From assembly GCA_014650475.1 (NCBI GenBank), contig BMVA01000005.1, forward strand, positions 1-64,000: a stretch of DNA of 64,000 nt. Reading direction: 5' to 3'. The notes beneath the pieces are model-generated. The model made no database searches. It saw nothing but the letters and a program-made list of their open reading frames with translations, and was not told the origin of the DNA. This document shows, piece by piece, positions 1-15,960 of this stretch; within the stretch, counting starts at the first letter, position 1; every line of letters begins with the position of its first letter. Origin of the DNA: Streptomyces albogriseolus (GTDB lineage Bacteria > Actinomycetota > Actinomycetes > Streptomycetales > Streptomycetaceae). Position numbers and translations under genes: made by a program.

Positions 1-246
1 GCCCGCAAGCAGCGAACACCCGGGCTGCGCCCGGGTGTTGCGCTCCCGCTCCGCGTGAGCGCTGCTGCTCGCTGCGCGAGCAGCGTCACCCGCCTTGCGG
101 AGCAAGGCGGGTGACGCTCCGTCCGCTGCGCTCCCGGAGCTGCGGGGACTGCGTGGTGGCCTCCGCTGCGCTCCAGCCACCCTCGGGTGCTCCACACCCG
201 AAAGGCCGGCCCCGCTGCGCGGTGCGGCCAACGGGCCTACGGCCCG
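1..246. repeat. Telomere-like terminal palindromes (left end of linear replicon)
   Basis: These bases are almost entirely closely packed inverted repeats. The clearest stems are 15-24/30-39 (10 bp, loop CTGCG), 40-45/57-62, 64-71/77-84 (8 bp, loop CTGCG), 82-98/102-118 (17 bp perfect, three-base loop), 184-189/195-200 and 232-237/241-246. On the bottom strand, which would be the 3' overhang at a left end, loops 25-29 and 72-76 read C-GCA-G, the compact triloop known from streptomycete telomeres. Linear Streptomyces replicons end in such foldback arrays capped by a terminal protein. The opening bases do not match the archetypal CCCGCGGAGCGGG start as I remember it, so this may be another telomere class or the outermost bases may be missing. 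No gene here is credible; bases 247-426 show nothing further. Confidence 0.82.
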
Positions 247-426
247 GGCGGCGAGGAGAGGGGGTGGCTGGTTTGGTGGCATGGGCCTGGTTGGCTATGT
301 GGGAGAGGGTGTTGGGTAGTGGCTTCATCCAGGTTGATGCACATGTAGTCTTGGGGGAAGCACGGGACACCCCCTAACCACCTGATGAGAACTGGGTTGT
401 CTGCGCTTCCAGGAAAAGGGAAAACG

Positions 427-960
427 ATGTGGAGTGCTCAGGACGTGGCGCGGGATGAGGTCCGGCGTCAGGCGAATGGACTGGATGCTGCCGCCGTTGC
501 GGAGAAGGTCGCGGAGGCCGCTGTCCGTGAGCGGGAATCCGCGGAGCGGCTGAGGGGGAATGGTTCCTTCTACAAGTTCGAGATGGACCGGGAGCGGCTG
601 GCTGTCATCTGGCTGACCAAACACGCTGAGTGGCAGCGTGTCAGGGACTTGATGACTGCGCTGGGTTGGAGCGTGTACGAGCCGGAGCAGGATGTTCAGG
701 GCTCGGTGTGGGCTCGTGAGCGTGAGGAACGGCTTGCTGGTGCGCTTGCGGCACAGGCTGCCTCCGGGGAACAGGGGCGTCAGGTAGCGGATGAGCTGCG
801 TGCGGAGGTCTGGCTGTCCGCCGCGTCCAGCCGGCTGCTCCGGACGGTGGCCTACCGGGCGGGGTTGCCTGCTTCTCAGGTCCTGGCCCAGCTTGCCGAG
901 CGCATCGTGGTAAGCGAGGACGGTACGGTCTCTGTGCCGCCCTTCACACCATCCCAATGA
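427..960 (+). CDS. Telomere-adjacent protein of unknown function
   Basis: I do not recognise this 177-aa protein. It is soluble, charged and probably helical: the N-terminal third is rich in Ala, Glu and Arg (AAAVAEKVAEAAVRERES), the middle carries aromatic residues (WLTKHAEWQRVRDLMTALGW) and the C-terminal part is again Ala/Leu helical. ATG at 427 is preferred over the in-frame start at 385 because AGGAAAAGGG lies just upstream. Its TGA overlaps the ATG of the helicase in an ATGA, so the two are translationally coupled and probably act together. Position next to the telomere suggests a terminal-maintenance or helicase-accessory role, which is inference only. Confidence 0.72.
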   Translation: MWSAQDVARDEVRRQANGLDAAAVAEKVAEAAVRERESAERLRGNGSFYKFEMDRERLAVIWLTKHAEWQRVRDLMTALGWSVYEPEQDVQGSVWAREREERLAGALAAQAASGEQGRQVADELRAEVWLSAASSRLLRTVAYRAGLPASQVLAQLAERIVVSEDGTVSVPPFTPSQ

Positions 961-3695
961 TTTCCGAAGCAAGTGAAGAAGGAAGGCGCAGGGAGGGCTT
1001 GAGGGTGCTGGGTATTCAGCTTCGGGAACATCAGGTGGCCCAGAAAGCTGCTTTCCGTAAGTGGGTTGGATTTCCTGCAAGGTCTTTTGTGCCTGCTCAG
1101 GGGGCGCGGGGCATGATCGTGTCCGCGACTGGGTCGGGCAAGACGATCACGGCGGCTGCGTGCGCGCTGGAGTGCTTCCCCGGCGGGCGGATCCTGGTGA
1201 CCGTGCCGACCCTGGACCTGCTCGTGCAGACCGCCCAGGCATGGCGGGCTGTGGGCCACCGGGCGCCTATGGTCGCGGTGTGCTCGCTGGAGAACGACCT
1301 GGTGCTCAACTCGCTGGGGGTGCGCACCACCACCAACCCGATCCAGCTCGCCCTGTGGGCCGGATCCGGGCCGGTCATCGTGTTCGCCACGTACGCATCC
1401 CTGGTGGACCGCGAGGAGATCGACGCACCAATGGGTCAGCGGAAGGTACGCGGGCCGCTGGAGGCCGCCCTGGCAGGCGGAGAGCGGCTGTACGGACAGC
1501 GCATGGCGGGCTTCGACCTCGCCATCGTGGACGAGGCCCACGGAACCGCCGGTGATCTTGGTCGGCCGTGGGCGGCGATCCACGACAACCAGCGGATCCC
1601 CGCCGACTTCCGGCTCTACCTCACCGCGACCCCGCGCATCCTGGCAGCTCCCCAGCCGCGAAGGGCCGCAGGCGGCCAGGAGCTGGAAATCGCCTCGATG
1701 GGCCAGGACTCCGCCACCTACGGGCCGTGGATCGCCGAGCTCGGACTCTCGGAGGCGATCGAGCGGGGCATCCTCGCCGGGTTCGAGATCGACGTGCTGG
1801 AGATCCGCGACCCCTCCCCCGTCCTGGGCGAGTCGGACGAGGCGCTGCGGGGCCGGCGCATGGCGCTCCTGCAGACGGCGCTCCTGGAACACGCCGCGAA
1901 GTGGAACCTGCGCACCGTGATGACGTTCCACCAGCGGGTGGAGGAGGCAGCGGCGTTCGCTGAAAAGCTGCCGGAGACCGCTGCCGAGCTGTATGTCAGC
2001 GACGTCTCCGACGAAGACCTGGCCGCCGCGGACAAGCTCCCGGCGTCCTCGATCGACGCGGAGTTCTACGAGCTGGAGGCCGGCCGCCACGTCCCGCCGG
2101 AGAGGGTGTGGTCGGCGTGGCTGTGCGGCGACCACCTCGTGGCCGAGCGGCGCGAGGTCCTGCGCCAGTTCGCGAACGGCATCGACGCCAGCAACCGGCG
2201 GGTGCACCGGGCGTTCCTCGCCTCGGTGCGGGTGCTCGGGGAAGGCGTCGACATCACCGGCGAGCGGGGTGTGGAGGCCGTCTGCTTCGCCGACACCCGC
2301 GGCTCCCAGGTGGAGATCGTGCAGAACATCGGCCGCGCGCTACGCCTCAACCGCGACGGCTCCACCAAGGTCGCCCGGATCATCGTGCCCGTCTTCCTGG
2401 AGCCCGGCGAAGACCCGACCGACATGGTCGCCAGCGCCTCGTTCCGGCCCCTTGTAGGGGTCCTTCAGGGCCTGCGCTCGCATGACGAACGACTCGTCGA
2501 GCAGCTCGCCTCCCGCGCCCTCACCAGCGGCAAACGCAAGGTCCACCTCCAGCGCGATGAGGAAGGACGGATCGTCGGGGCCGACGGCGCGGGCGACGGC
2601 GAGGACACGCAGGCAGCCGCCGAAGCGGCCCTGCTGCACTTCTCCAGTCCGCGCGACACCGCGACCATCGCCGCGTTCCTTCGCACGCGGGTCTACCGGC
2701 CGGAGTCGCTGGTGTGGCTGCAGGGCTACCAGGCGCTGCTGCGGTGGCGGAAGGAGAACGAGATCACCGGCCTCTACGCCGTTCCCTACGACGTAGAGGT
2801 CGAAGTCGGGGCGACCAAGGCGTTTCCACTCGGCAGGTGGGTCCACCAGCAGCGCAAGGCGCTACGCGCCGGTGAACTCGGTCCCCACCGCAAGACGCTG
2901 CTCGACTTGCCGGAGGCCGGGATGGTCTGGGAACCCGGCGAGGAAGCCTGGGAGAACAAGCTCGCCGCGCTGCGGTCCTACCGGCAGGCCACCGGGCACC
3001 TCGCACCCCGCCAGGACGCCGTGTGGGGCGAGGGCGAGGCGATGGTCCCGGTCGGCCAGCACATGGCCAACCTGCGCCGGAAGAGCGGGCTGGGCAAGGA
3101 CCCGGAGCGGGCCGCTGCGCGCGCGGCACAACTGTCGGAGATCGATGAGGACTGGAACTGCCCCTGGCCGCTGAACTGGCAGCGCCACTACCGCCACCTC
3201 GCCGACCTCGCCGAGGACGAGCCTGGTGGGGTGCTGCCCGACATCCAGCCCGGCGTACTCATGGACGGCGACGACATCGGACGCTGGCTTCAGCGGCAGA
3301 AACAGCCGAGTACCTGGGCGCGGCTCCTGCCCGAGCAGCAGGAGCGGCTGACCCAGCTCGGCGTACAGCCCGCCGAGGCCCAGTCCCCCGCCCCAGCAGG
3401 GACAACCCCCGCAGGGGCGGCCCCGGCGAGGGCCAGCGGCACGACAGTGAAGGGCACGGGCAAGGCGCAGCAGGCCTTCCAGCGCGGGCTGACGGCCCTC
3501 ACGCAATGGGTCGAACGGGAAGGCGCCCACCGGCCGGTGCCCCGCGGGCACAGCGAGGACATCACCATCGACGGCGAGACGAAACCAGTAACCGTGAAAC
3601 TCGGCATCTGGGTATCCAACACCAAGACCCGACGCGACAAGCTCAGCGCGGAGCAGCTGACCTCGCTGCGGGAACTGGGCGTGCAGTGGGCGTGA
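957..3695 (+). CDS. Telomere-associated DEAH helicase with helicase-associated (HA) repeats, TtrA-like
   Basis: This 912-aa superfamily 2 helicase has Walker A ATGSGKT (Lys62), motif II VDEAH (residues 191-195), motif III TATP (about 223-226) and a motif VI stretch QNIGRALRLNR near 456-466. The C-terminal third holds tryptophan-containing HA repeats (for example AWENKLAALRSYRQATGH, and GIWVSNTKTRR near the end), separated by an Ala/Pro-rich linker around residue 810. Helicases of this build lie next to the telomeres of Streptomyces chromosomes and linear plasmids, where TtrA has been tied to conjugal transfer. The gene is the first large one inside the palindromes and is coupled to the 177-aa gene by an ATGA overlap. 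All core motifs look intact. The TtrA equivalence is by family and position, not by alignment. Confidence 0.85.
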   Translation: MISEASEEGRRREGLRVLGIQLREHQVAQKAAFRKWVGFPARSFVPAQGARGMIVSATGSGKTITAAACALECFPGGRILVTVPTLDLLVQTAQAWRAVGHRAPMVAVCSLENDLVLNSLGVRTTTNPIQLALWAGSGPVIVFATYASLVDREEIDAPMGQRKVRGPLEAALAGGERLYGQRMAGFDLAIVDEAHGTAGDLGRPWAAIHDNQRIPADFRLYLTATPRILAAPQPRRAAGGQELEIASMGQDSATYGPWIAELGLSEAIERGILAGFEIDVLEIRDPSPVLGESDEALRGRRMALLQTALLEHAAKWNLRTVMTFHQRVEEAAAFAEKLPETAAELYVSDVSDEDLAAADKLPASSIDAEFYELEAGRHVPPERVWSAWLCGDHLVAERREVLRQFANGIDASNRRVHRAFLASVRVLGEGVDITGERGVEAVCFADTRGSQVEIVQNIGRALRLNRDGSTKVARIIVPVFLEPGEDPTDMVASASFRPLVGVLQGLRSHDERLVEQLASRALTSGKRKVHLQRDEEGRIVGADGAGDGEDTQAAAEAALLHFSSPRDTATIAAFLRTRVYRPESLVWLQGYQALLRWRKENEITGLYAVPYDVEVEVGATKAFPLGRWVHQQRKALRAGELGPHRKTLLDLPEAGMVWEPGEEAWENKLAALRSYRQATGHLAPRQDAVWGEGEAMVPVGQHMANLRRKSGLGKDPERAAARAAQLSEIDEDWNCPWPLNWQRHYRHLADLAEDEPGGVLPDIQPGVLMDGDDIGRWLQRQKQPSTWARLLPEQQERLTQLGVQPAEAQSPAPAGTTPAGAAPARASGTTVKGTGKAQQAFQRGLTALTQWVEREGAHRPVPRGHSEDITIDGETKPVTVKLGIWVSNTKTRRDKLSAEQLTSLRELGVQWA

Positions 3696-6638: not shown

Positions 6639-6672
6639 GATGGCCCGCCGCCCTCATGGGCGGCGGGCCATC
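6639..6672. terminator. Bidirectional hairpin terminator between convergent genes
   Basis: A perfect 15-bp stem, 6639-6653 paired with 6658-6672, closes a four-base loop (TCAT). It sits between the end of the RibD-fold gene (6514) on the plus strand and the end of the SUKH fragment (6686) on the minus strand, so it can serve both. There is no long T-run, which is normal in Streptomyces. Confidence 0.75.
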
Positions 6673-14341: not shown

Positions 14342-15960
14342 TCACGCCGGCAGGACTCGCTTGCGTAGGAGGGCAAAGCCGGCGCGGGCGAACATCTGGC
14401 GCGTGAGCATCTTGATCCGGTTGACGTGGCCTTCGACCACTCCTGAATTCCAGGGCAGCGTGAGGCCTGCGATGACGGGGTCGCGGTCTCGGTCGATGCC
14501 GGCAGCCAGGGTGTGGAGGCTGGGCAGGTCGTCCTGCCGAAGGGCGAGCCAGTCAGGCAGGCACTCGCCCTGGCCGTCGGTGAGCATGACCGCAAAGGAG
14601 CGGACGTGCCGGGTGAGGGCATCGAGTTCGGGGCAGTGGGTGCGGACGGTCTTGAGCTGGAGCTGTTCGAGCTCGGTGAGGGTTTCCGGGAGTCTGAGGA
14701 TCCATCCGGCGACCGTCCGCGGTGAGGGAGGACGGGCGGTCACCGGCTGCGGCAAGGTGCGCTTCTTGTGCAGGTAGGCGCGGACGCGCTGGTAGCTGCC
14801 TTTGTAGCCGAGGGGCACGCTCTCCTCCCAGAGCTTCCATGCGTTGGTGCACCCTTCGGTCCAGCGATCGTCGAGGTAGGGCTTGTACTCGGCGAGGACG
14901 GAGGGCCGGTTCTGCCACTGAATAGGCCTTCAGGCCTGTCAGCACGGGAGAACCGCTGGACCGTGTTCTGACTCATGCCGAGTTGCCGGGCCACGGACCG
15001 CTTGCTGTGCCCGGCGGCCAGCAGTGCGTGAATGGTGGCGTGCTTGGCGCGGGTCCGCTCAGCGAAGCTGTGCCCGGTCGGCAGCGTGAACTGGACGGCT
15101 TCCTTTCGGAGGCGCGCTCCGGCTCGGGTTCCGGGGTCGCAGGAACGAGGGCTCGGAGGCAGTGGCGGTGCTGGGGGACCGCGCTCGGCGGCTTCGCTCA
15201 GGTTGTGCCACAGATGCCACCGGTCCGCGACCTGGACCGCCTGCGGCGCCCCGGCTGCGGCGCCTTCTGCGAAGAACGGCGCCCGGTCCCGGCAGACGAC
15301 CTCGATACCGGGCCGCTGGGCAAGCCAGGCGGCCAGGCTCGATGCTTCTCGATCAGGCAAGAGATCGATCGGACGGCAGGTTTCGACGTCCACCAGGACA
15401 GTGCCGTAGCGGCGGCCCTTGCGGGTGGCGTACTCGTCGACGCCGACCACCCGCGCTGTCGACACCTCCGGCTCGGGCAGCGCCTCGACCAGCCGCAAGA
15501 CCGTACTCCGGCTGATGGGCATGCTGAGCACGGCAGCCAAGCGGGCGCCGACTCGACCGACCAGGGCAAGGCCGACCGCGGTCAGGGTGGAACGCAGCCG
15601 CTCGGTGCGCTGGCCATACTTGCGGGTCAGGCCGGGTATCTGCTCCACGAACGTCCGGCGCGGGCACTTGGTATTCCGGCGCCGGAACCGCCGGACCCGC
15701 AGCTGAAGTACGACGCTTCGCCCGGCGCTCGGGACATCAGCGAGAAACCGCAGGTAGGAGCTGTGAACCCCGGTCGGGCAGACTCCGCATCCCGGGAAGG
15801 CGGCGCCAGCCATCGTGCACTGTGCGTCGACGCGCTCTCTCTCGATGTCGACGCCCACCGACAGCACCGCGATGTCCGCATTCGCCGGGAATAGCAGCTC
15901 CTTCAGCCGGAGCACGACCTCTTCCACGGCCCAAAGTGTCAGCCCCGCCCCGCTGACCAC
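14342..15960 (-). pseudogene. ISL3-family transposase, frameshifted
   Basis: The 5' part (15960 to about 14925) holds the zinc-binding N-terminus (FPGCGVCPTGVHSSYLRFLA), the catalytic Asp region VVGVDEYATRKGRRYGTVLV and QVADRWHLWHNL, and a helix-turn-helix HSKRSVARQLGMSQNTVQRF. Near 14925 family sequence moves to another frame (QWQNRPSVLAEYK, then PLGYKGSYQRVRAYLHKKR) and ends SGVVEGHVNRIKMLTRQMF to 14342. One base has been lost, so no full protein is made. Terminal repeats are not evident. Confidence 0.82.

Follow-up and report, generated by a model that had tools for sequence, protein, structure and literature searches.

What kind of replicon end lies at the start of contig C5 of Streptomyces albogriseolus? 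The stretch of DNA analysed here (the window, 64,000 bases) comprises bases 1-64000 of this contig, which belongs to a Streptomyces draft genome of 8,066,392 bases in 66 contigs, and it opens with an array of palindromes whose first bases, as the initial annotation stated, differ from the archetypal telomere start: the window does not begin with CCCGCGGAGCGGG. Two explanations were offered at that stage, a non-archetypal telomere served by a terminal protein pair of its own or a telomere whose outermost bases are missing. Our analysis makes it very probable that the array is an archetypal telomere (S. coelicolor/S. lividans type) ending a linear replicon, and that the outermost 27-28 nucleotides are absent from the assembly. 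The lost part would span Palindrome I, a short spacer and, from Palindrome II, the loop and the outer arm.

Window base 1 is also base 1 of C5, so that the array begins right at the contig edge, although this is the edge of a draft contig and does not by itself prove a physical replicon end. Its homologues, too, are located for the most part at the ends of contigs or replicons. Together with its homology to archetypal Streptomyces ends, the position of the array bears out the initial description of the region as a Streptomyces-type terminus. C5 is 406,724 bases long and, on the basis of this length and of metabolic enzymes seen among the 20 ORFs scanned (out of 56 called), probably represents a chromosome end. 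A gene for an ISL3-type transposase lies near the telomere, at window 14740-15960.

The packed inverted repeats that had been noted were confirmed across window 1-250 by an inverted-repeat search and by single-stranded DNA folding (Table 1). Folding energies are -102.5 kcal/mol for the bottom strand of this region (shuffle mean -75.0, z -6.8) and -99.6 kcal/mol for the top strand (shuffle mean -72.1, z -7.4), and in each case 0/200 shuffles fold as well. Among 509 tiles of 250 bases from the 64 kb, tile 1-250 ranks first in stability on both strands, its bottom-strand value comparing with a mean of -59.2 kcal/mol (sd 9.4) for the other 508 tiles. Three of the five distinct perfect hairpins (stem of 9 or more, loop of 3-5) found in the whole 64 kb sit in the array, and the 17-bp perfect stem reported at 82-118 proved exact. 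The second longest perfect hairpin of the window (loop of 3-5) has a 15-bp stem and a TCAT loop, is located at 6639-6672 and could be a terminator.

Table 1. Features of the telomeric end (window coordinates; loops as read on the bottom strand)
Feature	Coordinates	Strand	Sequence	Remarks
Palindrome II, inner (right) arm only (probable)	1..9		GCCCGCAAG	Contig edge directly after the expected TGC loop
Spacer before Palindrome III	10-14
Palindrome III	15..39			11-bp stem, loop GCA
Palindrome IV	40..62			10-bp stem with one mismatch, loop GGA
Palindrome V	64..84			9-bp stem, loop GCA
Palindrome VI	82..118			17-bp perfect stem, loop TCC
Palindrome VII position	116..140		GCTCCG...CGGAGC	Consensus fold of 17 telomeres
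Inner, less regular inverted repeats	155-181, 183-201, 204-229, 232-246			232-246 kept in the 17-row consensus fold
ttrA-like terminal helicase gene	957..3695	+		Inward; Pfam HA/ResIII/DEAD

The typical loop of an archetypal hairpin is GCA (PMC7205883). GCA loops had been ascribed to the array from the outset, and on the bottom strand this holds for Palindromes III and V but not for Palindromes IV and VI. The first nine bases were assigned to one arm of Palindrome II by position-by-position comparison with L083, L071, L051, L040 and other loci that have the loop and the other arm.

Alignment with known archetypal telomeres, a check proposed in the initial annotation, gave a local score of 256 over window 11-250 against the right end of the S. 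lividans plasmid SLP2 (NC_004933). Both ends have Palindromes III to VII, ordered alike and with conserved pairing, and both show GCA loops in Palindromes III and V and a terminal helicase that points inward. The SLP2 right end, however, opens with Palindrome I, 27 bases beyond the position of window base 1, whereas in the window Palindrome I is missing, as is the outer half of Palindrome II. They differ too in the loop of Palindrome VI and in the Palindrome II arm, which is of the GGGC/GCCC kind in the window and of the ATCG/CGAT kind in SLP2. The nearest relative is L083, a contig end from S. althioticus JCM 4344 (BMSW01000031) that shares 93.5% identity with the window where the two align and has the same kind of Palindrome II, with one base differing in the first 14; unlike that of the window, its tip is complete and even extends one base beyond Palindrome I. 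The helicase encoded inward of the array is 80% identical to the SLP2 terminal helicase (BLASTP, 716/899), and its position and similarity suggest that it is TtrA. An inward ttrA gene is described as usual at archetypal ends (PMC8743542).

The hairpins of the array are conserved among these relatives. For Palindromes III and IV we aligned 49 copies (32 distinct), namely the window and those 48 of 59 relatives (see below) that have a 48-base stretch. The structure is paired in 97.8% of 672 pair cells and shows two-sided changes in 10/21 pairs, and slid versions of it reach a paired fraction of 64.0% at most; these values are biased in its favour, the sequences having been picked by similarity and the structure drawn from one of them. 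The observed value was reached by 0/500 shuffles on four of five measures and by 286/500 on the fifth (further pair types). A consensus fold of 17 longer telomeres keeps hairpins III, IV, V and VI as well as that at 116-140, with two-sided changes in 23/74 predicted pairs; from about 155 inward, pairing becomes less regular and long-range.

How distinctive is the window's start? Six Streptomyces telomere classes have been set out (PMC8743542) and further non-archetypal ends described (PMC7205883). Ends of the SCP1, Sg2247, Sg13350, pRL1 and pRL2 classes are, like the window, palindromic with small loops, but according to PMC8743542 they have different sequences, our own sequence comparison covering one presumed Sg2247 end. 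Ends of the SCP1 type begin with a single-base run (G on the new strand) and rely on Tac/Tpc; the assembled start of the window, from which the outermost bases are missing, has no such run. The absence of Palindrome I from the assembled start is the observation in favour of a non-archetypal telomere (SCP1, griseus or pRL type) with a terminal protein pair of its own. Several results count against it, beginning with the homology of Palindromes III-VII to archetypal ends. The left end of pSHJG1 (CP003276) is presumed to be of Sg2247 type, since the archetypal match of that plasmid lies at its opposite end, and it reaches scores of only 23-29 against the window. As the SLP2 left end opens with Palindrome I yet scores only 34, a low score alone does not separate telomere classes.

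The terminal protein genes also speak against this explanation. A search of the genome for tpg and tap, again suggested in the initial annotation, identified a single tap-tpg pair above the family cut-offs, on contig C36. We used profile searches with the Tpg model NF047541 (cut-off 90 bits), which was recognised through the SLP2 proteins, and the Tap model NF047542 (cut-off 600 bits). One Tpg gene scores above cut-off (C36:16919-17464, 291.9 bits), with a weak Tpg fragment (29.9 bits) also on C36, and 0/14 control genomes match the model. Likewise, one Tap gene is above cut-off (C36:14684-16864, 1105.9 bits); four weaker Tap-model matches (17-77 bits) lie on other contigs, and in the controls weak matches were seen in 8/14 genomes and matches above cut-off in 0/14. 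The C36 Tpg and Tap proteins are 86% and 82% identical, respectively, to the pSV2 pair, and residue 114 of the Tpg is Thr, the residue reported to be the deoxynucleotidylation site of Tpg (PMC3572947). The sole Tap and Tpg above cut-off are thus an archetypal-type pair. With the array homologous to archetypal ends as well, the proposal of a non-archetypal telomere was not supported by these comparisons, and we consider it extremely unlikely.

What, then, lies outside base 1? The exact window start (20 specified bases of window 2-22) had no match in the genome-contig collection, from which records of the window's own genome were possibly excluded. Since the same Palindrome II could therefore not be viewed whole elsewhere, we ran a relaxed pattern scan for Palindromes II of the window's kind. 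This returned 23 loci, 18 in Streptomyces and five in other bacteria, the latter all internal and with low alignment scores. Every one of the 18 Streptomyces loci is within 31 bases of a contig end. In 11 of these 18 ends, at least 22 bases are present outside the Palindrome II pattern, and nine of the 11 carry the exact sequence CCCGCGGAGCGGG, a further point against a non-archetypal telomere. Of the other two, L085 has a Palindrome I that differs in its first two bases, and L074 has the tip CCCGCGAAGCGGG, a Palindrome I variant with a different loop. L074 is a contig end of S. endocoffeicus CA3R110 in which the complement of the tip is found in Palindrome III, not IV, and possibly represents a distinct telomere subtype.

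Where Palindrome I is present in relatives it begins 41-42 bases outside Palindrome III, which places it 27-28 bases outside window base 1. Because the longer homologues carry the archetypal Palindrome I at this distance, the suggestion that the outermost bases are missing is the better supported of the two made initially, and Palindrome I, though unseen in the assembly, is the predicted tip. An independent pointer comes from within the array. In typical telomeres, Palindrome I is described as complementary to part of Palindrome IV (PMC4513846), and window 45-57 (CCCGCTCCGCGTG), within Palindrome IV, is a 12/13 complement of the archetypal Palindrome I, scored against the class consensus as the window's own Palindrome I is missing. 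Sites complementing Palindrome I this well occur once per strand in the 64 kb. Were the tip instead an L074-like variant of Palindrome I, this would make a hybrid telomere, archetypal in its body but with initiation at a different site, and served by plasmid-borne Tap-Tpg in trans; we think this very improbable.

An incomplete tip is common among the relatives compared here. Searched against 392 genomes of the genus, including that of the window, the array had matches with E values of 0.001 or better in 127, many of these matches being short and weak. Only seven of the 31 nearest genomes match (own genome counted), so relatedness does not predict a match. In a plasmid collection there are 84 matching records, 83 named Streptomyces and one [Kitasatospora]. 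In L007-L015, nine of the best loci from other genomes, the alignment begins at window base 8-11, 28-39 bases from the record end. From a wider set of 64 loci, assembled from best matches and pattern hits rather than as a random sample, five were dropped: L002 (the end of contig C23, below), L017, L020 and L024 begin inward of Palindrome III, and L090 aligns only at window 115-178. The remaining 59, with C36 of the window's own genome among them, can be read through Palindrome III.

Exact Palindrome I is present in 24/59 of these relatives and nearly exact in L085. Thirty of the 59 stop within the Palindrome I-II region, at 15-37 bases beyond Palindrome III; the window, with 14 bases outside Palindrome III, is cut one base closer than the shortest of them. 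As these 30 are without part or all of Palindrome I, such a start is by itself no sign of a non-archetypal telomere. The other four are the variant L074, L016 and L027 with extra sequence, and the internal L019. In L016 and L027 the extra sequence lies beyond the telomere, in the outer ~130 bases; it resembles sequencing adapters (Illumina P5-like and nanopore-adapter-like) and is likely to be an assembly artefact at telomere tips. In one study it was noted that the ends of its own sub-clade I perhaps do have Palindrome I, left unsequenced (PMC7205883).

The stop of the contig at base 1 is also what would be expected if the telomere were truly eroded in the cell. However, the 30 cut relatives stop at varied points, and they include chromosome-length contigs such as L018, L032, L042 and L044; for this pattern, loss of ends in assembly is, in our judgement, the easier reading. 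An end without Palindrome I would, moreover, have lost the template where Tap-Tpg starts, as described in PMC4513846. Erosion in the cell is accordingly a most unlikely explanation, and we infer that the tip was lost in assembly.

Could the array instead be internal, a repeat or pseudo-telomere in a contig that extends further to the left? Internal pseudo-telomeres do exist: L019 (G067:C1 near 9482596), from another genome, is 92% identical to window 25-144 and sits on a chromosome-length contig, ~25 kb inward of its end. The coincidence of window base 1 with contig base 1 argues against this, as does the proximity to contig ends of all 18 Streptomyces loci with the window's kind of Palindrome II. 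Within the window's own genome, the array matches are at a contig edge (C5 and C23) or 37 bases from one (C36). An internal origin thus appears exceedingly improbable.

The matches on C23 and C36 are both at 3' ends. That on C23 is 84% identical over window 52-271 and sits at the contig edge, broken inside Palindrome IV. That on C36 is 79% identical over window 11-178, and here the tip is complete: CCCGCGGAGCGGG is followed by a second palindrome, and the alignment with the window sets in just before the third. The ttrA-like helicase gene beside the C36 telomere (locus L003, minus strand, beginning at base 878 when the locus is reversed) has an early in-frame TGA at a position that encodes Cys in the window copy, and may be a pseudogene or reflect an assembly error. 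Two further exact matches to Palindrome I, one on C6 and one on C35 (3 kb from the contig end), lie inside contigs and were taken as chance, since a reversed control pattern has eight matches in the genome compared with four for Palindrome I.

In several respects C36 looks like a linear plasmid, though the contig is only 27.6 kb long. The tap-tpg pair, at C36:14678-17467 (L066:6679-9468), is about 10 kb from the C36 telomere, and ParA/ParB-like proteins and a D5-type domain are among the other products encoded on the contig. Excepting the telomere itself, 66% of the last 19.6 kb of C36 matches pSALBX2, a linear plasmid of S. albogriseolus of 336,677 bases, at 98.7%. The sole tap-tpg pair found may therefore reside on a plasmid and act on the chromosome end in trans, and we infer that it serves the C5 end. 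Plasmid-encoded tap-tpg acting in trans on a chromosome has been described for S. rochei and S. clavuligerus (PMC8743545).

By analogy with what has been published for the archetypal class, capping of the C5 end might proceed as follows. Replication would leave a 3' overhang of about 300 nt, which would fold. Palindromes II and III would form GCA-capped hairpins to be bound by Tap, which would join Tpg on the folded overhang (PMC4513846, PMC8743542). From a primer on Thr-114, Tap-Tpg would then synthesise the first 13 nt with Palindrome I as template, and a polymerase would fill in the remainder. With tap-tpg located on a contig that resembles a linear plasmid, capping of the chromosome end may be plasmid-dependent. 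What appeared to be a new telomere class is thus very probably a familiar and widely shared one with a missing tip.
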